This document shows, piece by piece, positions 2,156 to 29,877 of a DNA stretch of 36,277 bases. Each line of letters begins with the position of its first letter. Within the stretch, counting starts at the first letter, position 1. The position numbers were made by a program, and so were the translations under genes. The notes under the pieces were generated by a model. The model saw only the letters and a program-made list of their open reading frames with translations, ran no database searches and was not told the DNA's origin. The stretch is from a virus: positions 1 to 36,277 of IMG/VR virus record IMGVR_UViG_3300047471_000418. One strand, 5' to 3'.

Positions 2156-4090
2156 ATGAAACTCAATCGCGCCTATGCGGTGCTCGATATCAAATCGTTT
2201 GACGATGACCAGCGCATCATCGAAGGCGTTGCCTCGACGCCCACTGTCGATCGCGTCGGAGATGTCGTTAAATCACGCGGCGCTAAATTCAGTCTGCCGA
2301 TGCCTCTGTTGTGGCAGCATCGATCTGGAGAGCCGATTGGACACGTGGTCTGGGCCGAGGCACGTGATGACGGCATTCCATTCCGCGCGAAGATTGCCAA
2401 ATCGGTTGAGCCGGGAAAATTAAAAGACCGGCTCGACGAGGCCTGGCAATCAATCAAATTGGGATTGGTGCGCGCGGTTTCGATTGGATTCAATGCAGCC
2501 GCTGAAAAAGTTACAATGCTCAAGAACGGCGGCATTCAATATGATGAATGGGAATGGCTCGAGCTGTCTGCCGTCACGATTCCCGCCAATGTTGATGCTT
2601 CCATCCATACCATTCGCGCTATTTATCATAACTTGCGCGCCGCGTCCGGCGATACGCAAGAAGTGACCCCGGCCTCGTCAGGCCATTCCAGCAAATCCGT
2701 CGCCGTCGCGGCATCCCGTTCCATCAAATTGGAGGCCACGACCATGGCCACGAAAACCAATGCCGAGAGGATGAAAGACCTCGAGGCAAAACGCGCCGCC
2801 GAAGTGTCCGCGCGTGATGCAATTCAAAGCAAGATTGTTGAAGAAGACCGCACCAAGGACGAAGCCGAACAAAATGCGTTCGATGAGCATTCGGCAACCA
2901 TCAAGTCGGTTGATCGGGAACTCACTGATTGCCGTCTGATCGAAAAGGAATTGATCAGCACAGCCAAACCAGTATCGAACGGCGACGGCATCGAGATGCA
3001 TTCACAGTCGATCCAGGTGAAGGCACCAACGCTGCCGCCAGGTCTCGGCCTGATCAAGCGGCTGGCCTGTCAACTGCATGCCGACGTTTATCATCGCGAC
3101 GTGATCGCTGTGGCACGGCAATATTGTGGGCAATGGCCGCAGATCGAAATGGATATCAAGGCGGCGGTTGCCACCGGTACGGTTACCTCGGCGACATGGG
3201 CCGGCAATTTGGTGTACGCGCAGAACCTCGCCAGTGAATTCCTTGAATTCCTGGTGCCGCAGACCTATCTCGGCCGCATTCCAGGGCTGACGCGGGTCCC
3301 ATTTAACTCGCGCATCCCGCGTGAAAATAGCGTCATCACGGCACAGTGGGTCGGGGAAGGCGCATCCAAGCCGGTGGCCGCCGGGACGTTCGATACCGTG
3401 ACGCTGACCTTTGCCAAGACGGCCTGTATCATGGGCGTCACCGACGAGTTGGCAAGGTTCTCGAGTCCATCGGTTGAAATGCTGGTGCGTGACAATCTCG
3501 CCAAGGGCATTGCTAAGTTCCTCGACGAGCAGTTTATCAAACCGACGGTGACCGCAGTAACCAACGTGTCGCCGGCATCAATCACCAATGGTGCCGACAC
3601 CGACAGCGCAAGTGGCACCGACATCACCGCGGTGATCCATGATATCCGGCAGATCCTGTTCCACTTCCAGGAGTATAATATCCCGACCGACAATCTGACG
3701 CTGATCATGCAGCCGGTGCTGGCCACTTCGATTGGCACCATGCTGACAACTTTGGGCGTGGTGGCGTTCCCGAATGTCAATGGCAACGGCGGCAATATCC
3801 TCGGCATCACGGTGTTGACGTCGAACAATTCACCGGCCGGGCAAGTCACCGCAATTCATCCACCGTCGGTGTTTGTGGCGGACGAGGGCGGATTGCAAAT
3901 CGACGTGTCGCGCGAGGCATCGGTCGAACTGGATTCCGCACCCGCGGCCGGCAACTACCACCTGGTCTCGGCATTCCAGAACAACTTGGTGTTCGTGCGT
4001 GCCGAGCGTTACATCACGTGGATGCGCGGTCGGGATAAAGGCGTGTTTTATCTCACCAGTGCTGCCTACGGTGGGGCGGTGACAGGATGA
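2156..4090 (+). CDS. HK97-type prohead protease fused to major capsid protein
   Basis: One 644-residue reading frame holds two head genes. Residues 1-155 are a prohead protease (PF04586/S78-like): H55 in LLWQHRSGEPIG, S109 in VRAVSIGF and the ELSAVTIPAN block at 137-145 match the catalytic region. Residues about 197-275 are charged and helical (AERMKDLEAKRAAEVSARD...), like the delta/scaffold domain of HK97. Residues about 280-640 are an HK97-fold capsid protein (PF05065-like). The ATG at 2156 follows a GGTGAG-like site. An in-frame ATG at 2744 (M197) with GGAGG upstream could make capsid protein alone. Most phages encode the two as separate genes. The stop overlaps the next gene (ATGA). Confidence 0.93.
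   Translation: MKLNRAYAVLDIKSFDDDQRIIEGVASTPTVDRVGDVVKSRGAKFSLPMPLLWQHRSGEPIGHVVWAEARDDGIPFRAKIAKSVEPGKLKDRLDEAWQSIKLGLVRAVSIGFNAAAEKVTMLKNGGIQYDEWEWLELSAVTIPANVDASIHTIRAIYHNLRAASGDTQEVTPASSGHSSKSVAVAASRSIKLEATTMATKTNAERMKDLEAKRAAEVSARDAIQSKIVEEDRTKDEAEQNAFDEHSATIKSVDRELTDCRLIEKELISTAKPVSNGDGIEMHSQSIQVKAPTLPPGLGLIKRLACQLHADVYHRDVIAVARQYCGQWPQIEMDIKAAVATGTVTSATWAGNLVYAQNLASEFLEFLVPQTYLGRIPGLTRVPFNSRIPRENSVITAQWVGEGASKPVAAGTFDTVTLTFAKTACIMGVTDELARFSSPSVEMLVRDNLAKGIAKFLDEQFIKPTVTAVTNVSPASITNGADTDSASGTDITAVIHDIRQILFHFQEYNIPTDNLTLIMQPVLATSIGTMLTTLGVVAFPNVNGNGGNILGITVLTSNNSPAGQVTAIHPPSVFVADEGGLQIDVSREASVELDSAPAAGNYHLVSAFQNNLVFVRAERYITWMRGRDKGVFYLTSAAYGGAVTG
2731..2746 (+). promoter_or_regulatory. 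Internal ribosome binding site and start for free capsid protein
   Basis: GGAGG at 2731-2735 lies 8 bases before an ATG at 2744 that is in frame with the protease-capsid fusion (codon 197). It falls exactly where the protease domain ends and the helical delta domain begins. The site is stronger than that of the full-length gene. Translation here would give a 448-residue capsid precursor, which would let the phage make many more capsid subunits than proteases. The sequence is seen; its use is inferred. Confidence 0.7.
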
Positions 4091-4281: not shown

Positions 4282-5633
4282 AGATCCTCGGCTTCGAGGT
4301 TTCCGTGCGCAAGCAGTCGCCGATGCTGCCAACCGCAATCTATGACCGTGGCTGGTGGCCAATCGTGCGCGAGCCATTTGCCGGGGCATGGCAGCGCAAT
4401 CAACCGCTGAGCATGGAGAATCCGCTGCAGAACGCGACGTTGTATCGTTGCGTGGCCATGATTTCAGCCGACATCGCCAAAATGCGGCTCAAGCTGATGC
4501 AGCCGGTCGATCAGGTATGGCAGGAGACAACGGCAAGCGCTTTCTCGACCGTCCTCAATAAGCCAAATCGCTATCAGACCCGCATCCAATTCTTTGAAAG
4601 CTGGATGATTTCCAAACTGCGTGCCGGAAACGCTTACGTTCTCAAGGAACGCGATAATCGCAATGTCGTCAGCGCGTTGCACGTGCTCGATCCCAATCGC
4701 GTCAAGCCTATGGAGGCGTTGGACGGATCGTTATTCTACGATCTCAATACCGATCACCTGGCTGGCATTACCGAAGAACATGTCGTGATTCCGGCCAGTG
4801 AGATCATGCACGACCGCATCAATTGCCTGTTTCACAAGATGGTCGGCATGTCGCCGCTTTATTCTACGGCCGCGCCTGCTGCACGCGGGCTGTCGATTGA
4901 ACAGTTTTCGGCAATGTTTTTCGGCAATGCGGCGCGACCTTCCGGCATCCTGACGGCACCCGGTAACATCGACGAGGCCACTGCAGCGCGGTTGGAGAAC
5001 AACTGGCACAGCAATTATACCGGAATTAATCAGGGCAAGGTGGCGATTCTTGGTAGCGGGCTGACATGGAATCCACTGCAACAGAATGCCGTCGATAGCC
5101 AATTGATCGAGCAGCTCAAGCACAACAACGAAACGATCTGCACGGCATTCGGCATCCCGGCATTCATGGTCGGGGCGAAAGATCCGCCCAATTATCAAAA
5201 CGCTGAACTGCTCGACCTGCAATATTACAAGCAATGCCTGCAGTCTTTGATCGAGCATATCGAATTGATCTTGTCGGAAGGCCTCGGCCTAGTCGGTGCC
5301 GGTTATCGCGCCGAATTCGATCTTACCGGCCTATTCCGCATGGATTCGCAGACGCAGATCACGGTGCTGGCGGAGGCTGTAAGCAAGGGCATTCTATCGC
5401 CGAATGAAGCGCGCAGGGTGCTCGGCTATATCGATGTAACCGGCGGCGAATCGCCAATGGCGCAACAGCAGATGTTTACCTTGCAGGCACTCGCCAACCG
5501 CGCTAATGCGCCGGCCTTGCCAGCCGCTCCGGCGCCAATGCCGAATCCGACAACGCCAGCACCGACACCAATCAATCAGCGCGCCTTGCTCGACGCGATC
5601 CGCAGGAGCCTAGGCCATGCAACTGCCGCTTGA
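4278..5633 (+). CDS. Portal protein (HK97 family)
   Basis: A 451-residue protein that fits the dodecameric portal at the head vertex (PF04860). Typical features are LYRCVAMISADIAKM near residues 53-68, the MVGMSPLYSTAAPAARGLS region, and a conserved stretch PPNYQNAELLDLQYYKQCL in the wing/stem. The C-terminus is an alanine-proline-rich linker (NAPALPAAPAPMPNPTTPAP), probably disordered. The ATG overlaps the upstream gene (ATGA) and the end overlaps the collagen-like gene by 17 bases. Unusually, it lies downstream of the protease-capsid gene. In HK97-like phages the usual order is terminase, portal, protease, capsid. Confidence 0.93.
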   Translation: MKILGFEVSVRKQSPMLPTAIYDRGWWPIVREPFAGAWQRNQPLSMENPLQNATLYRCVAMISADIAKMRLKLMQPVDQVWQETTASAFSTVLNKPNRYQTRIQFFESWMISKLRAGNAYVLKERDNRNVVSALHVLDPNRVKPMEALDGSLFYDLNTDHLAGITEEHVVIPASEIMHDRINCLFHKMVGMSPLYSTAAPAARGLSIEQFSAMFFGNAARPSGILTAPGNIDEATAARLENNWHSNYTGINQGKVAILGSGLTWNPLQQNAVDSQLIEQLKHNNETICTAFGIPAFMVGAKDPPNYQNAELLDLQYYKQCLQSLIEHIELILSEGLGLVGAGYRAEFDLTGLFRMDSQTQITVLAEAVSKGILSPNEARRVLGYIDVTGGESPMAQQQMFTLQALANRANAPALPAAPAPMPNPTTPAPTPINQRALLDAIRRSLGHATAA

Positions 5634-6165
5634 GGATATTCTTGGGCGTGAGATCGCCGAAATTATCAAGGAACACACTGCATCAATTAAAATGCAATTC
5701 GATCAGCGCATCGCCGCGCTCGAGGCGCGCATGCCGGAAAAAGGCGAACGCGGCGAAATTGGACTGCAAGGACCGCGCGGAGAAAAAGGCGACCGCGGCG
5801 ACATTGGGCTGCGCGGTGAAGTTGGCATCCCCGGCAAGGACGGCAAAGACGGCAGGGATGGCATATCCATTCACGGCGAAAAGGGTGAGCCCGGACCGCC
5901 AGGTCCACCGGGTCAAAACGGTAAGGATGGTGCAGGACCATCGCGTGGGCGCCATCGCGGACCATGGAAGCATGATGATGATTTTCATCTCGACGACACG
6001 GTTTCCTGCGGCGGCAATGGCTGGGTCTGCATGATCGAGGGTGCAAAAGACAAGCCGGGCGACTCGAAGCAATGGCAATTGTTCGTCAGGAAGGGCAGCA
6101 ACGGCAAGGATGGCGAACGAGGGCCGCCAGGTCCACAGGGGCCGACGGGCAAATATGAGCCATGA
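5617..6165 (+). CDS. Collagen-like virion protein with a CBM5/12-like insert
   Basis: A 182-residue protein. Residues 10-38 look like an amphipathic helix that could start a trimer. Gly-X-Y triplets run from G43 to G82, pause at ISIHG, and continue from G87 to G105 (including GEPGPPGPPG). Residues about 115-160 form a small domain with two cysteines and tryptophans (DDTVSCGGNGWVCMIEG...KQWQLFVRKG) that resembles the chitin-binding CBM5/12-like domain of phage fibres. A second triplet run spans G160-G178. Phage collagen-like segments are known to form trimeric fibres. Its place between portal and adaptor, overlapping both neighbours, suggests a head- or neck-associated whisker or fibre (inferred). 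Confidence 0.85.
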   Translation: MQLPLEDILGREIAEIIKEHTASIKMQFDQRIAALEARMPEKGERGEIGLQGPRGEKGDRGDIGLRGEVGIPGKDGKDGRDGISIHGEKGEPGPPGPPGQNGKDGAGPSRGRHRGPWKHDDDFHLDDTVSCGGNGWVCMIEGAKDKPGDSKQWQLFVRKGSNGKDGERGPPGPQGPTGKYEP

Positions 6166-6842: not shown

Positions 6843-7468
6843 GTTGGCGCGTTGAGCCGTTATGGAAAGGGGATATTGCCTATATCGTTGGCGGCGGCAC
6901 GTCGTTGCTTGAGCAGAACCTTGAGCTGATCAGGGACAGGAACGTCATCGCCATCAATAGCAGCTATCTTGCGGTGCCATGGGCGCAATATGTTGTATTT
7001 GCCGACATGCGCTGGTTCCTGCACCACCGCAAGGCGCTGATGAATTTTGGCGGCAAGATCGTCAGCTGTTCAACCGCGGCAACTGGCCCACCGCCGATCC
7101 TGACAATGATCCGCAAGACCACGCCGGGCCTGGCCACCGATACGCACACGCTGATGGTGAAGAATACCACGCTCACCGCGGCTCTTAATCTGGCGGTGCA
7201 CCTCGGTGTCACCAAGATCGTATTGCTAGGCATCGATCAGAAGGCCGGGTCAGACGGAAAGATTCATCACCACCCGCCACACCCATGGAAACCAACCGCC
7301 GATTGCTGGCGGCGGCAACAGACAGATCTGCCGAAGGCTGCCGAGGATCTAACGGCGCTTAATATCGAATGCGTCAACGCCTCGCCGGGCAGTGCATTGA
7401 CGACCTGGCCCATAGTGCGATTGGAAGACCATGTTGCTGCCGCCGATCCAGTCGCGCGCGTCGCCTGA
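6839..7468 (+). CDS. DUF115/MptE-like Rossmann protein A
   Basis: A 209-residue protein with an N-terminal glycine loop (AYIVGGGTSL, residues about 14-23) followed by NVIAINSSYLAVPWAQYVVFADMRW. Further on is LNLAVHLGVTKIVLLGIDQ. This arrangement is typical of phage proteins related to DUF115/6-hydroxymethylpterin pyrophosphokinase MptE. DUF115 also occurs in flagellin-glycosylating Maf proteins, so a nucleotide-sugar or pyrophosphate transfer role is possible but unproven. A histidine-rich stretch (KIHHHPPHPW) follows the core. The start is TTG overlapping the adaptor stop (TTGA). The next gene overlaps its end by 38 bases. It probably works with the transferase genes that follow. Confidence 0.7.
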   Translation: MSWRVEPLWKGDIAYIVGGGTSLLEQNLELIRDRNVIAINSSYLAVPWAQYVVFADMRWFLHHRKALMNFGGKIVSCSTAATGPPPILTMIRKTTPGLATDTHTLMVKNTTLTAALNLAVHLGVTKIVLLGIDQKAGSDGKIHHHPPHPWKPTADCWRRQQTDLPKAAEDLTALNIECVNASPGSALTTWPIVRLEDHVAAADPVARVA

Positions 7469-8405
7469 CAAGCGGCTGCATATTCAAGGTATGCAGGGAC
7501 TTGGAGACAATATCTATCAGCTGGCGTTTGTGCGTACGCTGGCTCGTACCCGAGACATAACACTCGAAACATCATGGCCGGAATTCTATGCGGGGCTGCC
7601 GGTTCGCTTTGTCAGGCCGCAAGGATCGTATTCGCGGTTACGCACGCAGAACAAAAACGTGGCGCGCAGTCGTGTGGCTTGGGTGCCGCGACCGCCACGG
7701 GTGCAGAGTATCCGCAATACCTACCAGCGCGCGTTTCTGGCTGGGCGTTCGATCATCAATGGCATGGAGGAGTCATTCGGTATCCCTTTCGTGCCACCCC
7801 TCGAGCTGCCACCATTGCCGTCACCGCGGGCGATACAAACAGACAAGCCGCTCGCCTTTGTGAGACCGCTCACCGTCAGGAGTGAGTGGTTTAATTCGGC
7901 GCGCAATCCCGAGCCGCAATACATTGCCGATATCGTCGAAGCATTACGGCCGACGCATCACATCGTTTGCGTGGCCGACGTTGCCCATGCCGCCGAATGG
8001 TTCGTTGGAGTACCGCCTAAAGGTGACAGCGAGTTCATTCACGGCGAATTGCCGGTGATGGATATGCTGGCGCTAATGGCGGCGTCCGACATCATTATCG
8101 GCGGCATGGGTTTTATCATCCCGGCGGCACTCGCCCTCAACAAGCATTGCTTCGTCGTGCTTGGCGGCCAGGGTGGGCACAATGCACCGAGCCGGGTGCT
8201 CGATCCGCGGCTCGACTGCTCGCGCATCGGCTTCGCGACTCCGAAGGATTTCTGCCAATGCACGAACATGCGGCACAATTGCAACAAGACAATCCCCGAT
8301 CTGATGCAACAATTCTGCCGTTTCCTCGACCGACGCTGCACGAGCATATCGCTGAACGTCGCCTGCAATGGTTCCCCGAGCTTGGCATCGGCTATTTCCC
8401 TGTGA
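7431..8405 (+). CDS. GT9/heptosyltransferase-like glycosyltransferase
   Basis: A 324-residue protein with a GT-B look. The N-terminal motif GMQGLGDNIYQLAFVRTLA (residues 20-38), followed by ITLETSWPEFYAGL, resembles the first Rossmann domain of family 9 (ADP-heptose LPS heptosyltransferase-like) proteins. The C-terminal half has ASDIIIGGMGFIIPAALAL and VVLGGQGGHNAP, fitting a donor-binding site. A cysteine cluster (FCQCTNMRHNCNK) lies near the end. The ATG at 7431 overlaps the upstream gene by 38 bases; an alternative ATG at 7491 would cut into the conserved motif. The 3' end overlaps the next gene by about 148 bases. Acceptor and sugar cannot be read from sequence. Confidence 0.7.
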   Translation: MLLPPIQSRASPDKRLHIQGMQGLGDNIYQLAFVRTLARTRDITLETSWPEFYAGLPVRFVRPQGSYSRLRTQNKNVARSRVAWVPRPPRVQSIRNTYQRAFLAGRSIINGMEESFGIPFVPPLELPPLPSPRAIQTDKPLAFVRPLTVRSEWFNSARNPEPQYIADIVEALRPTHHIVCVADVAHAAEWFVGVPPKGDSEFIHGELPVMDMLALMAASDIIIGGMGFIIPAALALNKHCFVVLGGQGGHNAPSRVLDPRLDCSRIGFATPKDFCQCTNMRHNCNKTIPDLMQQFCRFLDRRCTSISLNVACNGSPSLASAISL

Positions 8406-8953
8406 CGGAATCGCCTTATGACCAGGCGTATTTCGACAGGTTTTGCAGGCAGGCGGATAGCCCGATTGGCCGCAGCCTGATGGCGGGCAGGGTAAGATTC
8501 GTGGCGCAATATCATCGTGGCGGGTTGGTTGATGTCGGTATCGGTTCCGGCGCATTCGTTGAAAGACGAAACGCAATCTATCATCGCTCGACGCTCGGCT
8601 TCGATATCAACCCGGCGGGCATTGCATGGCTGAAAGAACGTAAGCTGTGGTGCGATCTCGAGACGACGGTCCCGGCCATATCGATGTGGGATGTGGTCGA
8701 GCATATCCATGACTTCCGGCCGTTATTGTTCCGAGCGTCACGATGGTTGTTTCTGTCAGTGCCGATATTCCGCGACGCCGAGCATATTCTGCGCTCCAAA
8801 CATTATCGCAAGGACGAGCACTGCTGGTATTTCACGCGGCGCGGTCTGATCACGGTCATGCGCGGGATGGGTTTCGTTCTGGCCGGCAGCAGCAACATGG
8901 AAACAAGCGCCGGGCGCGAGGATATCGGCGCCTTTGCTTTCAGGAGAAGTTAA
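8258..8953 (+). CDS. SAM-dependent methyltransferase 1
   Basis: A 231-residue class I methyltransferase-like protein. Motif I is VDVGIGSGAF, the acidic ribose-binding strand is STLGFDIN, and ISMWDVVEHIHD matches motif IV of Methyltransf_23-type enzymes. A conserved lead-in, GYFPVTESPYDQAYFDRF, precedes the core. I chose the ATG at 8258, preceded by GAAGGA about 10 bases upstream. The longer frame from 8147 would run through codons that look like a shadow of the glycosyltransferase. Even so the overlap is about 148 bases. The substrate is unknown; neighbours suggest a sugar or glycoconjugate. Confidence 0.75.
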   Translation: MHEHAAQLQQDNPRSDATILPFPRPTLHEHIAERRLQWFPELGIGYFPVTESPYDQAYFDRFCRQADSPIGRSLMAGRVRFVAQYHRGGLVDVGIGSGAFVERRNAIYHRSTLGFDINPAGIAWLKERKLWCDLETTVPAISMWDVVEHIHDFRPLLFRASRWLFLSVPIFRDAEHILRSKHYRKDEHCWYFTRRGLITVMRGMGFVLAGSSNMETSAGREDIGAFAFRRS

Positions 8954-8956
8954 GGA

Positions 8957-9535
8957 ATGTTGCACATTGTTGATAGCACGGCACCTGAGCGAACCAAGTA
9001 CGAGGAAATATGGAGCTACCCGGAATATAAAGTCTTTTCGCCGGGCTTGGAAAATGTCGAACGCTTCATCGAGGTACTCGAGCCGATTGCCATGGCGAGC
9101 CTCATCGACATCGGCTGCGGTTCCGGTTGTGCCGGCATGAAATTCGCCAATCTCGGCTTCCGTGTGACTTGGTTGGACCTGACCGACGCTGCGCTCGATG
9201 AGCAGATTGATCGCACGCGCTTCATCCAAGCGGCGCTATGGGATAATTGGGGCATCAATAATAAGCGCGGATGGGATTACGGCTTTTGCTGCGATGTGAT
9301 GGAGCACTTGCCGCCTGAATACACCATGCTGGCACTCGATCGCATATTCAAGGCATGCGGCACTACATGGCTGCAGATTGCATTACATGATGACGGCTTC
9401 GGCAAATTCATCGGCAAGCCACTGCATCTAACGGTGCAGAATTTCGCATGGTGGCGCGACCGCATCGCTACATTGGGCACATTGACCGAGGCACGCGATT
9501 TGTGTGGAACAGGTCTTTACGTGGTGCAGCGATGA
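8957..9535 (+). CDS. SAM-dependent methyltransferase 2
   Basis: A 192-residue methyltransferase. Motif I is LIDIGCGSGCAGMKFANLGF, followed by VTWLDLTDAAL (acidic end of strand 2) and GFCCDVMEHLPPEYTMLAL (motif IV/post-IV). It starts with an ATG 3 bases after the previous stop, with AGGAG at 8942-8946. It overlaps the next gene by ATGA. It is distinct from the methyltransferase just upstream and is not an obvious tandem duplicate. No DNA-methyltransferase NPPY/DPPY catalytic motif is visible, which argues against a DNA-modifying role. A small-molecule or sugar substrate is more likely (inferred). Confidence 0.8.
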   Translation: MLHIVDSTAPERTKYEEIWSYPEYKVFSPGLENVERFIEVLEPIAMASLIDIGCGSGCAGMKFANLGFRVTWLDLTDAALDEQIDRTRFIQAALWDNWGINNKRGWDYGFCCDVMEHLPPEYTMLALDRIFKACGTTWLQIALHDDGFGKFIGKPLHLTVQNFAWWRDRIATLGTLTEARDLCGTGLYVVQR

Positions 9536-10458
9536 GTAGCCGTGGCAGGCACGACGCGGCGCAGACGCACGTCATTCCATTTGATCCGAAGCGAGTCATG
9601 GAAATTGCGTTTTCACCGGACTGCCGGGTCAACGTCACCGATGAACAATTGCTTGAACAGGTTCGCGAGAACATCAAACGCGGCTTGCCGCAGGCCATGC
9701 CATACGATCCGAATCCCGACGTGGCCATTTTGGTGGCGGGCGGGCCATCACTCAAGACGACCGAGAAGGAATTGGTCGAAACGATCTGGCGCACCGGCGG
9801 CAAGGTGTTCACAGTCAATGGCGCCTATCAATGGTGCATCGACCATAATATCCGGGTACATGCCGCGGTGGTGATGGATGCGCGCGAATTCAACGCGCGG
9901 TTTGTCGAAACGCCGGTGCATGACTGCCATTATCTTCTGGCCTCGCAGTGCCATCCAAAGACATTCGAGATGTGCCGCGATCGCATTGTCACGATATGGC
10001 ACGCGCTGAGTGCCGGCGACGACGAGATCACGCTGCTGGATAAATATTATTTCAAGCGGCATAACCCGGTGACCATCGGCGTTACCGTTTCGATGCGCGC
10101 TATTTCGCTGATGCGGATGCTCGGATTTCAGCGGCTGGAAATATTCGGTTTGGATTCATGCTGGCTCGACGGCGACCACCACGCCTACGAGCAGGCGGAA
10201 AACAACAACGAAAAAACCATGAGCGTCTGGTGCCGCCCCAAGGGACGCGATGATCTGGCGCAACGGTTTGTCTGTTCCGTCTGGCAGGCCAAACAGGCCG
10301 AGGACTTCTTGCAGCTCGTGAAGGAACGTGGCGAGTTGTTTCAGTTAAACGTGCACGGACCAGGACTTATCGCAACAATGATCCGCACTGGTGCGGAATT
10401 AGAAATAGAGGAGAAGCAAGATGGCAGTCGGGGCCTGGACTTTTTACAATCGTTTTAA
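9532..10458 (+). CDS. DUF115/MptE-like protein B
   Basis: A 308-residue protein with a glycine loop VAILVAGGPSLKTTEKEL, then KVFTVNGAYQWCIDHNIRVHAAVVMDAREF. Further on are NPVTIGVTVSMRAISLM and LEIFGLDSCWLDGDHHAY. This order matches the DUF115/MptE-like family more fully than protein A, and the two are distant paralogues in one operon. In the family DUF115 is linked to pterin pyrophosphate transfer and, in Maf proteins, to nonulosonic-acid glycosylation of flagellin. The ATG at 9532 overlaps the previous stop (ATGA) and is preferred over an upstream GTG. The end overlaps the next gene by 38 bases. Confidence 0.75.
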   Translation: MSSRGRHDAAQTHVIPFDPKRVMEIAFSPDCRVNVTDEQLLEQVRENIKRGLPQAMPYDPNPDVAILVAGGPSLKTTEKELVETIWRTGGKVFTVNGAYQWCIDHNIRVHAAVVMDAREFNARFVETPVHDCHYLLASQCHPKTFEMCRDRIVTIWHALSAGDDEITLLDKYYFKRHNPVTIGVTVSMRAISLMRMLGFQRLEIFGLDSCWLDGDHHAYEQAENNNEKTMSVWCRPKGRDDLAQRFVCSVWQAKQAEDFLQLVKERGELFQLNVHGPGLIATMIRTGAELEIEEKQDGSRGLDFLQSF

Positions 10459-10876
10459 AAGAAACTTAGGGCAGGCATTCCCGATAAATCTCGGGAGCGG
10501 CAACTTTCGCATTGCCCTCTATACGTCGGCATCGAATGCCGCGACGGCGACGCTGTCGATCATATCGAGTGTGACCAACGAGGTGACGGAGGCAAACGGC
10601 TATTCGTCATCCGGCAAGGCGCTGGCGTCGAAGACGTGGACCGCGGGCGCATCGGGTGGGCAGATGCGGTTCAACGCTGCGGCAACGGTGTGGACCGGGA
10701 CCGGCGGCACCATCAGCAACATCAAGTTTGCGGTGATCTGGGCATCGGGTGCTTCGGCGATCGCCCGCAAACTGGTTTGCTATAGCCAACTGTCAACGGC
10801 GCAGTTCAACCTGACGATCAACAACACGTTGACCATAACTCCTTCTGCCACGGGTATTTTCAATCTCGCGGGCTAA
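10421..10876 (+). CDS. Conserved phage structural-type protein
   Basis: A 151-residue beta-rich protein (MAVGAWTFYNRFKRNLGQAF...FRIALYTSASNAATAT...) of a type common in phage structural regions and usually annotated hypothetical. The start has the strong site AGGAG at 10409-10413, 7 bases before ATG, so it is probably made in quantity. This suggests a decoration or fibre component. It overlaps the end of DUF115 protein B by 38 bases and opens the surface-protein half of the accessory block. No catalytic motif is seen. Confidence 0.75.
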   Translation: MAVGAWTFYNRFKRNLGQAFPINLGSGNFRIALYTSASNAATATLSIISSVTNEVTEANGYSSSGKALASKTWTAGASGGQMRFNAAATVWTGTGGTISNIKFAVIWASGASAIARKLVCYSQLSTAQFNLTINNTLTITPSATGIFNLAG

Positions 10877-11504: not shown

Positions 11505-11968
11505 TGGCTGTAGAAAAATGGATTGCTGGTTCCGGCGTTGGCTTTACCTGGACCTCGCTGATGACCACGGAATTAAATTCCATTGCCTCGGGTAATGCCA
11601 TCTTGGGCGGCACGGCGGTGACCAATCAGACCGCGCTGGATATCTTCTGTGATTTCTCGCTGGTGCTTGCCAGTGCCGTTTTTGTCGCCCCGAATTTTGC
11701 GGGACTATATTTGTACGGCCTTAACGATGATAATTCGAGTTATGGAGACGGGCGCTTTACAAGTTCCGCTGCGGGTCCACCACCATCGAATTATTCTATC
11801 GGCAGCATAGGTATCGTCGTTGGAACGCAGGCGCAGACCGGCACGTTGCTGCGCGTCATCATGCCGCCCGGCACCTGGAAGCCGGTATTTTATAATCAAT
11901 GTGGAGTGGCGCTAAATTCGGCTAACAACACGTTAAAATACCGCACGTACAATCGCAGCGTTGCCTAA
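11504..11968 (+). CDS. Conserved phage surface-type protein
   Basis: A 154-residue protein: MAVEKWIAGSGVGFTWTSL, then LNSIASGNAILGGTAVTNQ, LDIFCDFSLVLASAVFVAPN and GLYLYGLNDDNSSYGDGRF. This pattern recurs in phages as a beta-sandwich-like hypothetical protein and fits a receptor- or capsid-binding module. The ATG at 11504 overlaps the previous stop (TAATG), so the longer in-frame frame from 11414 is not used. No enzyme motifs are seen. The next gene begins one base after its stop. Confidence 0.75.
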   Translation: MAVEKWIAGSGVGFTWTSLMTTELNSIASGNAILGGTAVTNQTALDIFCDFSLVLASAVFVAPNFAGLYLYGLNDDNSSYGDGRFTSSAAGPPPSNYSIGSIGIVVGTQAQTGTLLRVIMPPGTWKPVFYNQCGVALNSANNTLKYRTYNRSVA

Positions 11969-11969
11969 C

Positions 11970-12860
11970 ATGGCGGCGATCCTTAAGCCGTTTCAGAATT
12001 TATTAAGTCCAGGGTCGCTTCAGGTTCCAACTGGTATACTTTCTGTTGATTGGTCGCATCCGTTGGCGAGTGGCCTCATAGGGTGCTGGGTGCCTGGCGT
12101 CACCAACACCATAAATCTGGGATCAGAAAAAAGTCAGCCATTGGCCGGCCTCAGTGCCACCAATTTTTCCGCTATGACGGCGGCTGGTCCAGGAACTCTC
12201 ACGAATGCGGCAAACACAACATTAGTGGGGTTGGCGAATTCCGCCTTCAAGGACTGGCAAATAGGCTTCTCGATATTCTGGCATGGATACACCATAGGCC
12301 AAGGAACATTTGCCGACACTTGCCTGGCGGGGATTTCGACGACTGACGGCGCTAACAATTTCGTTGCCGCCATAACCCCTATTAGAAATGGCAGTACCTT
12401 TCAATTTCTTTATACGGCTAACGGTGCCTTACAATTCGCAACCGCTACGCCGCAAAATTCCATGAATACATGTGGCGGAACCTGGACAGTCGGCACATCC
12501 GCTCCGGTAGTCGCCTATTTGAATGGTGTTGTTGCTAACTCTGGCCCCTTTGGCAACAGCAGCAATACCGCGGGTGTTGCAACGTCAAAGGTGGTGATTT
12601 CCGGTATCTCTGGGTTTCCAACTCACTATGGCAATGTCATTACCAATGCGGTCTATTTCTGGAGGGATCGTATTTTAACTGCCGAGGAAATGAGATTTCT
12701 GGATCGAAGCCCTTATGATTTTCTGATACCAGCAGAAGGCGAGGCGCCGATGATGCTAGTGGTTCTTCCAACATTGCGCCAAAAACATTTCCGCTTCCGC
12801 ACCGATGCGGGCGCGGCCGATGCAACGCCGACATGGGGAGCACTAGAGGATACCAATTAG
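11970..12860 (+). CDS. LamG/concanavalin A-like lectin protein
   Basis: A 296-residue protein. After a short leader, VDWSHPLASGLIGCWVPG and the glycine/serine/asparagine-rich beta strands that follow fit a laminin-G/ConA-like sandwich. Near the end, YFWRDRILTAEEMRFLDRSPYDFL matches the closing motif of phage LamG-like proteins (R-x-L-T-x-x-E-I-x-x-L-x-x-x-P-x-x-F). Such proteins often bind sugars and decorate capsids or fibres. The ATG at 11970 is preferred over the TTG at 11961. It may bind the glycan made by the transferases upstream, or a host surface sugar; both are inference. Confidence 0.8.
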   Translation: MAAILKPFQNLLSPGSLQVPTGILSVDWSHPLASGLIGCWVPGVTNTINLGSEKSQPLAGLSATNFSAMTAAGPGTLTNAANTTLVGLANSAFKDWQIGFSIFWHGYTIGQGTFADTCLAGISTTDGANNFVAAITPIRNGSTFQFLYTANGALQFATATPQNSMNTCGGTWTVGTSAPVVAYLNGVVANSGPFGNSSNTAGVATSKVVISGISGFPTHYGNVITNAVYFWRDRILTAEEMRFLDRSPYDFLIPAEGEAPMMLVVLPTLRQKHFRFRTDAGAADATPTWGALEDTN

Positions 12861-13085
12861 ATGGCATTCAATCCTGGCACATCGACTTTCCGCATCCGCT
12901 TCAGCATTGCCAATACCGCTGCCGCCGCGAGTGGTGCCACATTGTTCGAGCTGTATATGTCGAAAAATGGCGGTGCCTACGCGCCGGTCACCACGACATC
13001 GACCAACGGCGTGAAATCCACTGACGCCGGATCGGATGTCGATAATACGATCATTACCATTCCACGCCTGACCGCCGGCGCCTGA
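12861..13085 (+). CDS. Fibre-domain protein, probably a truncated or split N-terminal half
   Basis: A 74-residue protein: FRIRFSIANTAAAASG, LFELYMSKNGGAYAPVTTTS, then TIITIPRLTAGA. I know this segment from phage proteins where it is followed by a beta-domain containing a QYDETGET-like motif. Here the gene stops at PRLTAGA. That continuation appears instead, twice, inside the 752-residue repeat protein downstream (residues about 51-117 and 245-311). So this looks like one half of a domain pair separated by rearrangement, or a deliberately short subunit. The ATG follows the upstream stop directly. Confidence 0.7.
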   Translation: MAFNPGTSTFRIRFSIANTAAAASGATLFELYMSKNGGAYAPVTTTSTNGVKSTDAGSDVDNTIITIPRLTAGA

Positions 13086-13103: not shown

Positions 13104-13640
13104 ATGTCACGGCAATATTTCGACGATACCCTTACCGAGCCGATCAACGCGGATTTCGCCACAATCACTGCCATCACCGAGACGGTTCTTATTCCGACAG
13201 TGTACACGCCAATCAATGCCATGGAGCCAAGGGCTGGAAAAGTTTATGAGCTTATCGTTGCCGGTACATGCACGACTGGTACGGCAGGAACGCTGATTAT
13301 TACTCCACGCTATGGGACGGTGATAGGCGGCGTGAGCATTGGCGTTTCGCCAACACAGAACTACGTCCCATCGGTCACAACCGCTCCATTCTTCTTCCGC
13401 TATCTTCTCACCATCCGTTCACTCGGCCTCGCCGGGGCGAACTCAGTGGTTTATGGCTGCGGGCAATGGGTGTCCGGCGGAGCGGTTGCTACGGCGGCGA
13501 GCCAGACGACAGTTAACTGTGCCGGGACCGCAACGGCTTCCGTGGATACGACAGTCGCATCGGCGCTATGGATTGGGATCACCTTCTCCGTTGCGCCAAG
13601 CGTCATCCCAAAATTTCACATGTGGCGATCGCTGAACTAG
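13104..13640 (+). CDS. Virion-associated beta-rich protein of unknown function
   Basis: A 178-residue protein (MSRQYFDDTLTEPINADF...). It has alternating hydrophobic strands and small residues (GKVYELIVAGTCTTGTAG, ANSVVYGCGQWVSGG) and a C-terminal GITFSVAPSVIPKFHMW. A good site, GGAGGG at 13090-13095, lies 8 bases before ATG. The protein has the look of a jelly-roll or head-decoration subunit, which I recognise only as a recurrent phage hypothetical. It sits between the truncated fibre-domain gene and the long repeat protein and probably contributes to the same surface structure. Confidence 0.7.
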   Translation: MSRQYFDDTLTEPINADFATITAITETVLIPTVYTPINAMEPRAGKVYELIVAGTCTTGTAGTLIITPRYGTVIGGVSIGVSPTQNYVPSVTTAPFFFRYLLTIRSLGLAGANSVVYGCGQWVSGGAVATAASQTTVNCAGTATASVDTTVASALWIGITFSVAPSVIPKFHMWRSLN

Positions 13641-13646
13641 CATGAC

Positions 13647-15905
13647 ATGCCAAAGACTCTTGGCCCGCATGCGGGAGGACCTGGCAGAGGCATAGGGTTC
13701 TGGGCACAACAGCCCCAGTTAATCCCGATCGATATTCCGGCAAGTCCAGCGAGCGCTGCTCTCGCATTATCCAACGATGCGGCCGCGAAAGCCACGTTTG
13801 TCGCCGGCCAGTACGATGAGACCGGCGAGACTGCCAGCATCACCCTGGCGCCGGCGCCGTCCTATACCGAGATCGAATTCGGTGTTGTTCTCGATTACGC
13901 AAATCTGGCCCTTGGAGACCGGCTGGATTTCCAGGTTTATGCCAACGGCGTTGCGATATCCTATGACGTAACGCCTGAACTAATTGCCGCAGCACTCCCA
14001 GCTGTCGCCAGCCTTGCGCTTTCGTCGGCCGCTCCTGCGTTGCTGCAGGGTGCAATCAAGTCACCGGCCGTTGCCGCGCTCGCACTGTCCGGCAATGCAC
14101 CGAGCATAAGCCTGGCGTTCTCGATTGTTCCAACCGTTGCAGCGCTTGCCCTGACGACGGCCGCGCCGAGCAGAGTTCAGGACAGCGCAAGAATACCGAG
14201 TGTTGGATCGCTGACGCTCAGTGGCACGACACCGACGCTGAAGCAGAGCATTTCGCTAACACCGTCCGCCGCCAGCCTGAATCTATCCGGCACGGTTTCG
14301 ACGGTAACAGCTGGCGTAAGTTTCTCCCCGGCCGCCGGCGCGCTTGCTTTTGCTTCGGCCGCGCCGTCATTCAAGTTCTTCATCGGCCAGTACGATGAGA
14401 CCGGCGAAACCGGCGCGATCAATATACCGGGCCTGTCGTACACCGAGGTGGAATTCGGTGTCGTTCTCGACAATGCCAATCTGGCCAATGGCGATACTCT
14501 CGATTTCCGCGTCTATATTAACGGCGTTCCACTCGCCGGTTATGATGTAACCCCGCGAATTACTGCGGCCATCGCCGGCGTTACCTTTGTTCCTGCCGCC
14601 GGAAGTCTGACATTAAGCGGCCAAACGCCGAGCGTTTCGGCTGGCATCAACATCAATGTAACGCCCGCGGTCGGTTCGCTACTGTTGAGCGGACAAACGC
14701 CGGTTGCGGCGGTCAATAACAACAAGATCCCTGCGGTTGGTTCGCTTACTTTAACCGGGCAGACACCGACCAGCGTAACGAATACTGCCAAGGTTCCGAC
14801 CGTTGCGTCATTGACGCTGAGCGGCACGGTTTCGACGCTCGTTCAGAATACCATTGCAACGCCTGCCGCTGGGTCACTAACACTAACCGGCGTTGCGCCG
14901 AGTCTAAGTCAAAGCCTTTTCAAGACGCCGGCAGTGGGAGCGCTGGCGCTATCCGGCAATACGCCTGTTCTGACGTTCAGCTATATCTTTATTCCGGCAG
15001 CGGGGTCGCTGACGCTGACCCGCGAAATGCCGAACGTGCTGTTGAGCGGCGCGCTTTATCCGAACACCGCAAGCCTCACATTATCGGCACTCGCGCCTTC
15101 ACTAAAGACGACATTCCAGGTTGCACCTGCCGCTGGTGCTTTGGCGCTGACCGGCGTTGTTCCGTCGGTCGCGCAGAACAATGTACTGATCCCGGCTGTC
15201 GGCTCGCTGACGCTGAGCGGAACAGTATCCACCATCACGGGTGGTTTTTATCTAGTCCCATCAGCTGCCAGTCTGACACTATCGGCAGCCGCTCCGAGTG
15301 TCGGCGGCGTTGTAACAAAACAACCGACTGCCGGCGCATTAACATTTACCGGCAATGCGCCGATTGCAAAAACCGACATACGGCTATCGCCCGCCGTCGC
15401 TTCGCTACAACTGTCCGGGCAGGTACCCAGCAAGGATGTCGGCGCCGCATACATGCCGGCAAGCGCGGCGCTGGCGCTATCCGGTGGCACGCCGATCCTG
15501 CTGCGCAATTACCGCGATATTCCAGCAGCGGGAACGCTGGCGCTATCGGGGCAAATACCGAATGTCCAGCTCGGCGGACAATTGCGGCCGGCGACGGCAT
15601 TGTTGTCGCTTACCGGCAATGTGCCGCGACGCAGTATCGGCACCACGCTCACGGTCCCGGCCGGGTCGCTTGCTCTCAGCGCAGTCGCCCCGCTTGTCGT
15701 CAAAACGACCGACGGCTATGTGCTGCCGATTACGATCTGCCATCTGAATGCAGAAATGACGGAAGGCGGATTGAATACGGTTCTGGCAACCAACGAACTT
15801 AATACGCTGATGAGCGCGGGTGAACTGAATACGATCCTTGCTGCCGATGCCCTCAACGTCGAGATCGATAGCGCCATGCTGGATGCTGAAATGGGGTGCC
15901 ACTGA
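13647..15905 (+). CDS. Giant 22-residue-repeat virion protein
   Basis: A 752-residue protein of unusual design. It contains 24 copies of a repeat of the form P-A-(A/V)-(G/A)-S-L-x-L-(S/T)-G-x-x-P-x plus about 8 variable residues. From P340 to P648 the period is exactly 22 residues in 14 consecutive steps. Two related modules interrupt it (residues about 51-117 and 245-311), each with GQYDETGET, TE(I/V)EFGVVLD and LDF-VY-NGV. The C-terminus has six Leu-Asn/Asp units spaced exactly 9 residues apart (L700 to L745). It has no signal peptide or catalytic motif. The regular P-SLTLSG pattern suggests a beta-solenoid or stacked beta-hairpin rod, with a helical end. A long surface fibre is the best guess. 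Confidence 0.8.
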   Translation: MPKTLGPHAGGPGRGIGFWAQQPQLIPIDIPASPASAALALSNDAAAKATFVAGQYDETGETASITLAPAPSYTEIEFGVVLDYANLALGDRLDFQVYANGVAISYDVTPELIAAALPAVASLALSSAAPALLQGAIKSPAVAALALSGNAPSISLAFSIVPTVAALALTTAAPSRVQDSARIPSVGSLTLSGTTPTLKQSISLTPSAASLNLSGTVSTVTAGVSFSPAAGALAFASAAPSFKFFIGQYDETGETGAINIPGLSYTEVEFGVVLDNANLANGDTLDFRVYINGVPLAGYDVTPRITAAIAGVTFVPAAGSLTLSGQTPSVSAGININVTPAVGSLLLSGQTPVAAVNNNKIPAVGSLTLTGQTPTSVTNTAKVPTVASLTLSGTVSTLVQNTIATPAAGSLTLTGVAPSLSQSLFKTPAVGALALSGNTPVLTFSYIFIPAAGSLTLTREMPNVLLSGALYPNTASLTLSALAPSLKTTFQVAPAAGALALTGVVPSVAQNNVLIPAVGSLTLSGTVSTITGGFYLVPSAASLTLSAAAPSVGGVVTKQPTAGALTFTGNAPIAKTDIRLSPAVASLQLSGQVPSKDVGAAYMPASAALALSGGTPILLRNYRDIPAAGTLALSGQIPNVQLGGQLRPATALLSLTGNVPRRSIGTTLTVPAGSLALSAVAPLVVKTTDGYVLPITICHLNAEMTEGGLNTVLATNELNTLMSAGELNTILAADALNVEIDSAMLDAEMGCH
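13797..13997 (+). repeat. QYDETGET module, copy 1
   Basis: First copy of an about 65-residue module within the repeat protein (residues about 51-117). It shares a 23-base identical run with copy 2 (13806-13828 versus 14385-14407) and the protein landmarks QYDETGET, EFGVVLD and DVTP. Near-identity at DNA level suggests fairly recent duplication or recombination. Confidence 0.8.
14379..14579 (+). repeat. QYDETGET module, copy 2
   Basis: Second copy of the module (residues about 245-311) lying between repeat units 7 and 8 of the 22-residue array. Landmarks are IGQYDETGET, YTEVEFGVVLDNANL, DFRVYINGVPL and YDVTPRI. It is 579 bases downstream of copy 1. Confidence 0.8.
14664..15653 (+). repeat. 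66-bp periodic coding repeat tract
   Basis: The main uninterrupted run of 22-residue (66-base) units: prolines at residues 340, 362, 384, 406, 428, 450, 472, 494, 516, 538, 560, 582, 604, 626 and 648 of the long repeat protein. The DNA is degenerate, but phrases such as TCGCTGACGCTGAGCGG recur. Such a tract can expand or contract by recombination without shifting the frame. Confidence 0.85.
15744..15896 (+). repeat. 27-bp/9-residue Leu-Asn repeats
   Basis: Six units spaced exactly 9 residues: LNAEMTEGG, LNTVLATNE, LNTLMSAGE, LNTILAADA, LNVEIDSAM, LDAEMGCH. They have acidic and helical character and lie at the extreme C-terminus of the repeat protein, so they may form a docking or trimerisation tip. 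Confidence 0.75.
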
Positions 15906-16207
15906 TGACGACCAAAGTCTTTCGCGGGCAGCTCCTGGTGTTCACGGCAACACCGAAGGATGACAATGGCAATCCGGTCACGCCGTCGTCGGTCAAGCTA
16001 TATCTGAACTATCCGCATTTGAACGGCGTGACCTCCACCGACGAACCTATCAACATGCTGATGCAGACCGGTGGGACATGGAAAGCTGACTTTGATACGG
16101 CCGACACCAAGCCAGGCGCCGCCTTCGCATCATTGCGGGCCACCAATCCGCCCGGCGCCGAGGACATCAAGTTCACCATCGTCGCCAATCCAGCCAACCC
16201 GCCATGA
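15905..16207 (+). CDS. Small Ig-like/beta-sandwich virion protein
   Basis: A 100-residue protein: VFRGQLLVFTATPKDDNGNPV, VKLYLNYP, then GTWKADFDTADTKPGAAFASLRA. The strand pattern and the phrase GTWKADFDTAD resemble a small immunoglobulin-like or bacteriophage accessory beta-domain. The ATG at 15905 overlaps the stop of the repeat protein (TGATG). The end overlaps the head-closure gene by ATGA, so it links the surface block to the neck genes. It is probably a minor decoration protein; the family is not certain. Confidence 0.7.
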   Translation: MTTKVFRGQLLVFTATPKDDNGNPVTPSSVKLYLNYPHLNGVTSTDEPINMLMQTGGTWKADFDTADTKPGAAFASLRATNPPGAEDIKFTIVANPANPP

Positions 16208-23324: not shown

Positions 23325-24056
23325 ATGCCTCTCATCCTGCGCTCAGTCAAAGGGTCGAACCTGACGCCGAACGAGGCGGATGGAAATTTTACTTATCTGA
23401 ACAATCTCATTGCCTCGGTCGAGGACAACATTACCGCCGGGCGCGGCATCGTCGATATCACCATCAGCGGCAATATTATCACCTTCCACATGAGCGACTC
23501 GACGCTGGAAACGGTGACGATACCAAGCGGTACATTCACATGGATCCCGAAAGGTGAATGGCAACCGAGCACGCTCTATGCCGTCAACGATGTGGTTTCC
23601 TATTTCGGCTCGTTGTATCTGGTTATCTTCGCACACACGTCGCATGTGTCATTCGATGCCGCCGCCAATGACGGCTTCGGGCATTACTTCTATTCGCTGA
23701 TCCTGCCGAAGGAGCCGGTATGGGGGCAGACCATCAGCGCCTCCATCCATACTACGGTGCTCACAGACGCCAACACCTACATGCGCTTCACCAGTGCGAG
23801 CGGCTGCATCGTCACCATCGATCCCGCGGTCGATTATCCGGCCTGGACGGAAATGCATTTCCGTGACGAATGCCCTGCGGTTACCGGTGGCGGCGGCAGC
23901 CTGATTATAGAAGCGGCGACGCCTGGCGCCATCAATCCGGTTCTCGGCTATCAGAATATGACGGCGGCGAAGGGTGGCACAATCACCGTCAAACAAGTAG
24001 CCGATAGCAAGGTCTGGGATATTTTTGGATTATTGGCGGTTGAGGGCACTGCTTAA
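23325..24056 (+). CDS. Tail fibre protein with CBM5/12-like domain
   Basis: A 243-residue protein. The N-terminus (LRSVKGSNLTPNEADGNFTYL) is a common leader of phage fibre proteins (K-G-x-x-L-T-x-x-E-x-D-x-N-F). Residues about 75-105 (KGEWQPSTLYAVNDVVSYFG, SLYLVIFAHTS) match the carbohydrate-binding CBM5/12-like pattern W-x-x-x-x-x-Y-x-x-x-D-V-V. The C-terminal part (TEMHFRDECPAVTGGGGSLI) resembles a receptor-binding tip seen in several phages. It is likely to contact host surface sugars. TAATG overlap with the next gene. Confidence 0.8.
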   Translation: MPLILRSVKGSNLTPNEADGNFTYLNNLIASVEDNITAGRGIVDITISGNIITFHMSDSTLETVTIPSGTFTWIPKGEWQPSTLYAVNDVVSYFGSLYLVIFAHTSHVSFDAAANDGFGHYFYSLILPKEPVWGQTISASIHTTVLTDANTYMRFTSASGCIVTIDPAVDYPAWTEMHFRDECPAVTGGGGSLIIEAATPGAINPVLGYQNMTAAKGGTITVKQVADSKVWDIFGLLAVEGTA

Positions 24057-25663
24057 TGCCGGTTGAAGGCGGCCGCACCACCAAACGCAAAAAAGTATTG
24101 TTACCCAGTGGCGAGGAAATCTACATCCCCGTCATTACCGGAATATCATTTACCGATGCGCAGGATCGCGGGCAGGAAACGCAACACACGATCGACAACA
24201 GCCTTGAGAGCAATCGCATCGTTCACGTCGATCAGGTCTTTGCCACCACGGTCGACGAAGAGGGCAATGCGACCGACGATCCGCCAGAACAGGACACCAG
24301 CAATCCGCTTTATGTCGAGCGTATCGACGTATGGAAAAGCCTGGATGTAGTCGACCGCGGGCAGGAAACTGAATTCAGCATTGACAACAGGACCGGCAAC
24401 GATACTGCGCCGCCCAGATTCACCAACCATCTGAAGACGCACATCTACCGCTATTTCCAGGACCCGGAAAATCCAGACGACAACGGGACATGGATCGACG
24501 CTGAATTGATCGATCAGATTTCCGTTCTTGATCCGGCTGACCGCGGGCAGGAAACAATCTACGCGCTGGAAAATCCTACCAATGCAGAGTTCCAGAGCGG
24601 AGATTTATCGGGACAGGCCAGCCCTAACGACCCCGACATCAGCAACGGCGATGGGTCTGAGGGCACGATTGACAATCCGGTCCGTACCGATCCATTTCAG
24701 AACATCGTCAATTTCAGTTCGGGCCATTATCTGCTGGTCATGCAATGGGAATGGTATGACTGGTATCTGATCCCGATTCCGTCTCAATCAATCGAATTGC
24801 CCTATACTGTGCCGACCGATCTGTCGGTGAGCTTGGATGCGGCAACCGGGGACGGGATTGAATTGCTGTTCAGCGAGCTGGTCACTCAGCCAAATTCGGT
24901 TGCGACCGGCGTCAATAAATACATCCTTATAAAAATATGGGATATGCCGAGCCCGCCGGGGAATTTTACCACCGATCCGTCAAAATGTTTCACATTGCAC
25001 GGTGCTATTTCCGATACGACGGGCGGCGGTGGCAGTGCGGATCGCGACCAGCGCTATACCAAGCAAACCAATCCGCATCCGCCCACCGCTATTGTCACGG
25101 CAATCTATGAAGACCTTTCGGTCGGACCCTATCCGACCATGATCTTCCAGCTTTTCTCGAGCAACGATTACGAATATGACGCCGGTCTGTGGAACCCGCT
25201 TACACCACAACCGCCTATCCGTTTCACCGGTCCCACTTCAGAGCCTGAGCCAGGTCCGGTTTTCGGTGGTACGCAAGGCGTGGCATCGATCCGCAATACA
25301 CCGGCCACAGACCATTTTTATAATGCACCGAATACGCCACCGTTCACGACTGTTGCCGGTGGTGATAACACTTACATCACGACGGGAATTTATAAATCCG
25401 GGCTATTTGAATTGAAGATCGCTAGTCTCGGACAACAGCAGACCGGACCCAATACCAGCGTAAACAAGATTGCTGCCTGGCCGTCATTGCCGGTGATGCG
25501 GACGATCGTCGATGGATCGCCTACCAGTCTGATCTACCCGCCCAATCCTGCCTATAGTCTCGGCTTATATAATGCGCAGGGTACCGACTGGCTGACTGCG
25601 GCGATCTATAAATTCGGTGGGCCGCCGATCCTGTCGAACAAATATACGAGCAGCAATCCATGA
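24056..25663 (+). CDS. DRGQET-repeat tail protein
   Basis: A 535-residue protein I cannot assign to a family. Its most striking feature is the hexapeptide DRGQET at residues 37-42, 100-105 and 162-167, each followed by a segment of the type x-x-x-S/T-I/L-D/E-N, so there are three tandem units of about 62 residues. The remaining two thirds are proline- and glycine-rich beta sequence (ILIKIWDMPSPPGNF, TPATDHFYNAPNTPPFTTVA). The absence of a signal peptide and the position among fibre genes suggest a tail fibre or fibre-linked structural protein. It overlaps both neighbours (TAATG and ATGA). Confidence 0.7.
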   Translation: MPVEGGRTTKRKKVLLPSGEEIYIPVITGISFTDAQDRGQETQHTIDNSLESNRIVHVDQVFATTVDEEGNATDDPPEQDTSNPLYVERIDVWKSLDVVDRGQETEFSIDNRTGNDTAPPRFTNHLKTHIYRYFQDPENPDDNGTWIDAELIDQISVLDPADRGQETIYALENPTNAEFQSGDLSGQASPNDPDISNGDGSEGTIDNPVRTDPFQNIVNFSSGHYLLVMQWEWYDWYLIPIPSQSIELPYTVPTDLSVSLDAATGDGIELLFSELVTQPNSVATGVNKYILIKIWDMPSPPGNFTTDPSKCFTLHGAISDTTGGGGSADRDQRYTKQTNPHPPTAIVTAIYEDLSVGPYPTMIFQLFSSNDYEYDAGLWNPLTPQPPIRFTGPTSEPEPGPVFGGTQGVASIRNTPATDHFYNAPNTPPFTTVAGGDNTYITTGIYKSGLFELKIASLGQQQTGPNTSVNKIAAWPSLPVMRTIVDGSPTSLIYPPNPAYSLGLYNAQGTDWLTAAIYKFGGPPILSNKYTSSNP

Positions 25664-29649: not shown

Positions 29650-29877
29650 CTATCTTTTTAACGCCTCGTCGATCGTCCTATAAAAAACGTCGACTAAAAG
29701 TTTAAGTCTCTTTTGCTGGACCTTATGAATTGTCATGTTGCTTTTCCAAGCGGCTATCAATGGGCCTTCTTTTCCGTGCTTTTGACGCCCCTTTAGAGAG
29801 GACTGCAATTCGCGCTGAATTTTATCTGTCAATTGTTCAAATTGTTTCTTAAGTCGTAATGCTTCTTTTCGTGTCAT
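29650..29877 (-). CDS. Small basic helical protein after the integrase
   Basis: A 75-residue lysine-rich protein (MTRKEALRLKKQFEQLTDKI, QRELQSSLKGRQKHGKEGPL, KVQQKRLKLLVDVFYRTIDE). Predicted mostly helix, possibly a coiled coil. Its ATG overlaps the integrase stop (ATGA), so it is coupled to integrase synthesis. The longer frame from 29910 is a read-through of the integrase C-terminus. I recognise no family. A DNA-binding accessory is possible from charge alone. Confidence 0.65.
   Translation of the reverse strand: MTRKEALRLKKQFEQLTDKIQRELQSSLKGRQKHGKEGPLIAAWKSNMTIHKVQQKRLKLLVDVFYRTIDEALKR

Follow-up and report, generated by a model that had tools for sequence, protein, structure and literature searches.

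An even-length repeat array linked to phrog_644 as the candidate shaft of a phage surface appendage

What could a phage gain from a long protein made largely of one short repeat and encoded beside glycan-modifying and lectin-like genes? This question is raised by the window, an IMG/VR virus record of 36,277 bases. Its genes include a terminase, a protease-capsid fusion, a portal, a collagen-like protein, a glycan-type cassette and a stalk block, as well as a head-tail attachment protein, a tape measure, tail genes and an amidase. The stalk gene is positioned between the head and tail modules. The fusion is a 644-aa ORF (2156-4090) that joins a prohead protease (PF04586) to the major capsid protein (PF05065), and the collagen-like protein (5617-6165; PF01391), located between the portal and connector genes, is a second candidate fibre gene. 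A tail-region protein (23325-24056) carries a CBM_5_12 carbohydrate-binding module (PF02839). An integrase-like gene recognized by eye (29874-30920, - strand) adjoins a small excisionase-like gene, so the phage is probably temperate.

The stalk protein, here called P0001 (752 aa; 13647-15905; orthologues in L004-L009 and L012), had initially been described as 24 units with an exact 22-residue period. The count of 24 holds, while the exactness does not. Units start at residues 34, 118, 140, 162, 184, 206, 228, 316 and 340, after which a new unit begins every 22 residues up to 670, the sole exception within the runs being the 24-residue unit from 316 to 340. The prolines from 340 to 648 do follow each other in 14 steps of 22, as annotated. 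The array comprises a truncated first unit (residues 34-47; 13746-13787), units 2-7 (residues 118-243; 13998-14375) and units 8-24 (residues 316-691; 14592-15719), the last of which opens with V instead of P. Two other features proposed in the initial annotation are real and are kept in the orthologues: the two related modules that interrupt the array (residues 48-112 and 244-306) and a distinct C-terminal Leu-Asn array with a 9-residue period and six copies (residues 700-752; 15744-15902). All these features lie on the + strand. Helices are predicted for the Leu-Asn tail in a low-confidence full-length AlphaFold2 model, and relatives of P0001 carry other short arrays in its place. Many array proteins end in a comparable second short-period array, of about 9-18 residues and unrelated sequence (L021, L030, L035, L042, L172, L186, L222, L226 and L228).

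The periodicity is strong, with 182 identities at lag 22 against a maximum of 102 among 1000 shuffles. The units share a mean identity of 37% (54% over residues 1-13 and 13% over residues 14-22), and Tandem Repeats Finder detected no DNA-level repeat at the array. The divergence of the units, together with the lack of a DNA repeat, suggests that the array is old and not a recent product of slippage. Moreover, dN/dS for the whole protein is 0.15-0.17 against the orthologues in L004 and L007; this purifying selection indicates a functional gene. P0001 matched no family in Pfam, PHROG or NCBIfam and no sequence in the PDB, and no relative was found in a scan of genome contigs.

The repeat itself is widespread. 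A consensus query returned 34 IMG/VR loci, whose arrays range from 4 to about 33 units and mostly stand behind varied N-terminal domains, and all sets together contain 82 non-redundant closed array proteins, one or two of which are marginal (e.g. L017, with a different repeat). Using tblastn, we also found the P0001 repeat in mycobacteriophage minor tail proteins, e.g. Yoshi gp26 and prophiGD17-2 gp100. The proposal that the rod has an adjustable length is supported by the variation in unit number among related phages. P0001 orthologues have 24 or 22 units, and there are 19 in cassettes whose phrog_644 protein is 95% identical to that of the window. Likewise, Mycobacterium abscessus prophages carry 12 (465 aa), 9 (406 aa) or 6 units at one minor tail position; the 12- and 9-unit arrays have the unit-length string 24-21-22-24-22-20-20-20 in common and a nearly identical C-terminal domain, and the 6-unit arrays have two different C-terminal domains. 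Copies of the unit also occur elsewhere. A 539-aa protein of the tail-fibre region of the window (25660-27279) has about three copies of the P0001-type unit, which flank a domain matching phrog_18498/26223/17104; another domain comes next. In a podovirus from Manatee Spring (L061:5147-5737), a divergent version made of 22-residue AGAYxLTGTAA units is encoded close to head genes, and a few kb away lies a gene with the annotation general glycosylation pathway protein.

Comparison of these arrays revealed that the rule governing unit length is evenness, not 22. In 27 non-redundant arrays, unit spacings were mainly 20 (75), 22 (173) and 24 (75), with 329 even and 23 odd values. The same was observed in 63 arrays found via phrog_644 and not via the repeat, a set that overlaps the first in a few loci (497 even, 22 odd). 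Pooled, the two sets give 826 even and 45 odd spacings, with unit length quantised to 20, 22 or 24. Spacing counts inside one array are not independent, but a change from one unit to the next comes nearer to a single event: adjacent units differed by 2 in 97 cases and by 1 in 9 in the first set, and by 2 in 127 and by 1 in 9 in the second. The 24-residue unit of P0001 is itself 22 residues long in the orthologues of L006 and L012. Each unit consists of a constant 13-residue core, P-x-x-G-x-L-x-L-x-G-x-x-P, plus 7, 9 or 11 residues. Hydrophobic residues at position 15 and at the last-but-one position persist across unit lengths, with 0, 2 or 4 residues between them, and the residues inserted in the 24-residue class are turn-like (T-x-N-x). 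Even unit length is compatible with paired beta strands. In our reading, added residues would lengthen the paired strands, and consequently parity has to hold. The even-length rule is a sharp constraint for which any structure of the repeat has to account.

Which fold could obey this rule? For a six-unit segment with 74 homologous rows, AlphaFold2 placed strands at residues 3-9 and 14-19 of each unit and gave, with moderate confidence, a right-handed solenoid. The best model reached a pLDDT of 75.6 and a pTM of 0.66, the four others had pLDDT values of 53-69, and the five models disagree. Foldseek found no significant match of the six-unit model in the PDB; VIA-align superposed it on right-handed beta-helices (pectate lyase and HpmA) with an rmsd of 2.7 over 119-124 residues and a middling Z of 9-10. 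The full-length model (8 rows) was poor, with a pLDDT of 42.8, and still had strands in the array. For repeats, chiefly near-perfect ones, AlphaFold2 has a known tendency to predict too many solenoids (PMC11795689). Two strands per unit are likely on these models, and the stacked right-handed solenoid is unproven. Thus, of the solenoid or hairpin rod initially proposed, the regular beta repeat is upheld, and the predictions lean towards the solenoid.

Low and discordant model scores would also be expected if the array were a flexible low-complexity linker with no fixed fold. We consider this very improbable, because the even-length quantisation, the constant 13-residue core and the alternating hydrophobics are all present in both sets of arrays. 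A less remote alternative, albeit an unlikely one, is that folding of the repeat requires an intertwined trimer, the monomeric solenoid being an artefact of AlphaFold2. Trimers are common among phage fibres, the models of the segment differ from one another, and alternating hydrophobics with Pro/Gly turns recall the triple beta-spirals of adenovirus fibre and reovirus sigma1. However, the P0001 repeat fails the 15-residue register of that fold. The published triple beta-spiral consensus has 15 residues, with hydrophobics at c, e, g, k and m and Pro/Gly at j (PMC3150272), whereas the shortest common unit here is 20; from g to k there are 4 residues, against 7 from Leu8 to the hydrophobic at 15. 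In addition, the RcGTA head fibres have one subunit per spike (PMC7296036).

If P0001 is a shaft, one would look for its partners. One is a 151-aa protein (10421-10876, + strand) identified by a PHROG match as phrog_644, a near-obligate companion of the array. It occurs in 28 of the 31 contigs selected for an array, the three without it being fragments of 6-19 kb, and in only 1 of 26 controls (Fisher p 8e-12). The controls were contigs of 21-65 kb picked for a window-like terminase, and none of the 26 has a convincing array. The association also holds from the phrog_644 side: an array occurs at 82 of 104 phrog_644 loci, and at 41 of the 44 non-redundant loci that have at least 4 kb downstream, in 38 cases downstream and at a median distance of about 1 kb. 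By this reciprocal linkage, the pair behaves as a mobile cassette. In some phages, portal and head genes are among the near neighbours of the array or phrog_644. Sequence comparison of phrog_644 with solved chains in the PDB gave no detectable match. We also considered the gene of about 100 aa located downstream of the stalk gene (15896-16207) as a third conserved partner, and ruled it out since the downstream genes differ between phages. Across dozens of phage contigs, the repeat family and phrog_644, neither of which carries a functional annotation, are thus linked to each other, and this link offers a way into part of the phage dark matter.

The initial annotation had also pointed to a glycan cassette and lectin-like neighbours, and both are indeed present. 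Adjoining phrog_644 is a putative glycosyltransferase gene (9448-10458, + strand) whose product belongs to PF01973 (MptE-like/Maf-like; E 2.9e-15, 56.9 bits against a cut-off of 34.6), a family that we take to cover the Maf proteins, and weakly resembles FlagModPseD, a flagellin-modifying PseD. Two ORFs of the cassette (7431-8405 and 8147-8953) share about 260 bases, read in different frames, and the start assigned to the second may be wrong. It was further proposed that the evenly spaced Ser/Thr rows make the stalk a good O-glycosylation acceptor. In the form considered here, the Maf-like enzyme of the neighbouring gene would attach O-glycans at positions 5, 7 and 9, and these would mask the virion or tune adsorption. 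Maf enzymes add O-glycans to flagellin at Ser/Thr (PMC11339370). PF01973 scores above the cut-off in 12 of the 31 array contigs and in 0 of 26 controls, and in several lineages the gene lies at most 300 bp from phrog_644. In contrast, it is absent from 19 of the 31 array contigs and from all 28 phrog_644 contigs retrieved with the distant L036 query, and it is closer to phrog_644 than to the array. In addition, the Ser+Thr content of P0001 (20%) is ordinary for the window genome. The enrichment gives the idea some backing in part of the array contigs, and the distribution and composition speak against it. As an account of the array in general, it seems to us quite improbable. Glycosylation of the stalk is possible, not general, and the phrog_644 product could equally be the acceptor.

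How would lectin-like proteins be attached to the rod? A domain of about 175 residues offers a possible answer. Array proteins of L017, L019 and L039 carry it intact at their N terminus, and from the intact copies in L017-L020 and L039 we built a profile, which the window matches in complementary pieces, all on the + strand. The first part (profile 3-29; 12774-12857; i-E 3.8e-5) is the C-terminal tail of a 299-aa protein (11961-12860) that appears LamG-like by eye and matches nothing in Pfam, PHROG or NCBIfam. The middle part (profile 38-103; i-E 7.8e-14) is a separate 74-aa peptide, the plug (12861-13085). The C-terminal part occurs twice in P0001, as the two interrupting modules, which we call socket 1 (residues 48-112; profile 105-171; 13788-13982; i-E 7.6e-14) and socket 2 (residues 244-306; profile 108-172; 14376-14564; i-E 1.2e-17). 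Between the plug and stalk genes lies a gene for a 178-aa protein (13104-13640, + strand) that is conserved in the orthologues. The layout of the split domain is preserved in the orthologues examined. ORFs 11961-12860 and 12861-13085 are in frame in the window; stop-codon read-through joining them was considered and is less likely than coupled separate translation, given the stop/start overlap (TGATG) in L012. The intact domain has no PHROG match, and its similarity to the capsid cement protein Bbp16 (20.8 bits, below the Pfam cut-off of 27.1) is a lead only. It also precedes quite different arrays in L017 (5677-8580, and 8592 onward) and L019 (5515-9399), namely SPVLGTPTL-type arrays of about 22-23 residues and alanine-rich ones, on contigs without phrog_644.

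Fragments of this kind can result from gene rearrangement, and it is conceivable, if somewhat doubtful, that the pieces were left behind when a gene broke up or now serve separate new roles, with no reassembly. P0001 has two C-terminal parts for one visible set of N-terminal parts, and socket 1 has Q in place of the arginine of the LDFR motif. Against this, the pieces are under selection: the plug has a dN of about 0.02, a dS of 0.57-0.85 and a dN/dS of about 0.03, and the sockets have dN/dS values of 0.07-0.19 (0.07-0.08 for socket 1). Most invariant residues of the domain are retained across the pieces. Moreover, the distant lineage L169/L258 has the same break, with the N-terminal part (4-105) in a 534-aa protein and the C-terminal part (107-162) in an array protein encoded about 3 kb downstream on the same contig. 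In L167, the N-terminal part heads a 522-aa protein, residues 183-378 of which score 128 bits against NF048003, the GTA head-spike-fibre domain, and the contig ends before any array becomes visible. The shared break, the complementarity, the retained invariant residues and the selection, seen in two or three lineages, suggest reassembly in trans. From these sequence patterns, we tentatively propose that lectin-like heads carrying the N-terminal part, which would belong to a beta-type domain, may clip onto the sockets of an adjustable stalk after separate translation. If so, heads and stalk length could be exchanged independently between phages, which would explain how receptor-binding heads are swapped without remaking the shaft, and the docking would be a natural counterpart of engineered protein clips.

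Taken together, we think it somewhat probable that P0001 forms the shaft of an appendage on the virion surface that also contains phrog_644 and docked lectin-like heads. In our model, each unit would form two short beta strands linked by its PxxG and GxxP turns, and the units would stack into a rod, the number of units setting its length. The rod and phrog_644, which we take to be its base or a close partner, would travel as a mobile cassette. Lectin-like proteins would ride on the rod, being fused to it in some phages. In the lineage of the window, the heads would probably dock by domain complementation, with the N-terminal parts (the 11961-12860 protein and the 74-aa peptide at 12861-13085) completing the two C-terminal sockets of the array. 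The likely task would be auxiliary, multivalent attachment to surface glycans. The repeat, its even lengths, the link to phrog_644, the natural spread of unit numbers and the split domain with the selection on its pieces are observed directly; the rod fold, the virion location, the docking and the glycan binding are what we infer from these data. In annotated mycobacteriophages, the array genes are found among minor tail genes, and elsewhere some are near portal or head genes.

Several known systems resemble this proposed appendage. The mycobacteriophage minor tail proteins (Yoshi gp26, ThetaBob gp22, prophiGD17-2 gp100) have the same repeat core, units mostly of 20-24 residues and a varying number of units, but differ in having 5-12 units, a C-terminal beta-type domain and a tail-gene position. 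The RcGTA head spike consists of a capsid-bound jellyroll base pentamer, Rcc01079, and a single head fibre, Rcc01080, and binds capsular polysaccharide (PMC7296036, PMC10218006). Like the pair that we propose here, it joins a fibre to a small base partner, on an alphaproteobacterial particle, and in the relative L167 the N-terminal part of the split domain is fused to a GTA_spike_fiber domain; however, descriptions of the RcGTA fibre do not mention a repeat array. NF048003 has no match in the window and is above the cut-off in 1 of 42 array or phrog_644 contigs, that of L167, which rules it out as a general feature of the cassette. The fibres of the lactococcal neck passage structure (NPS) are accessory, bind carbohydrates at their ends and are co-expressed with the capsid (PMC6669499), and the proposed P0001 appendage is likened to them as such a fibre. 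In contrast, an alpha-helical coiled coil forms the NPS shaft and its base is BppU-like, whereas the P0001 models are beta in the array (with low confidence at full length) and have no coiled-coil shaft, and the best BppU-like_C match has an E of 0.53. With no NF048003 match in the window and no coiled-coil shaft in the models, we assign the P0001 system to neither group. By analogy, the appendage would most likely work like the RcGTA head spikes or the lactococcal neck fibres, while being built from a previously undescribed repeat.
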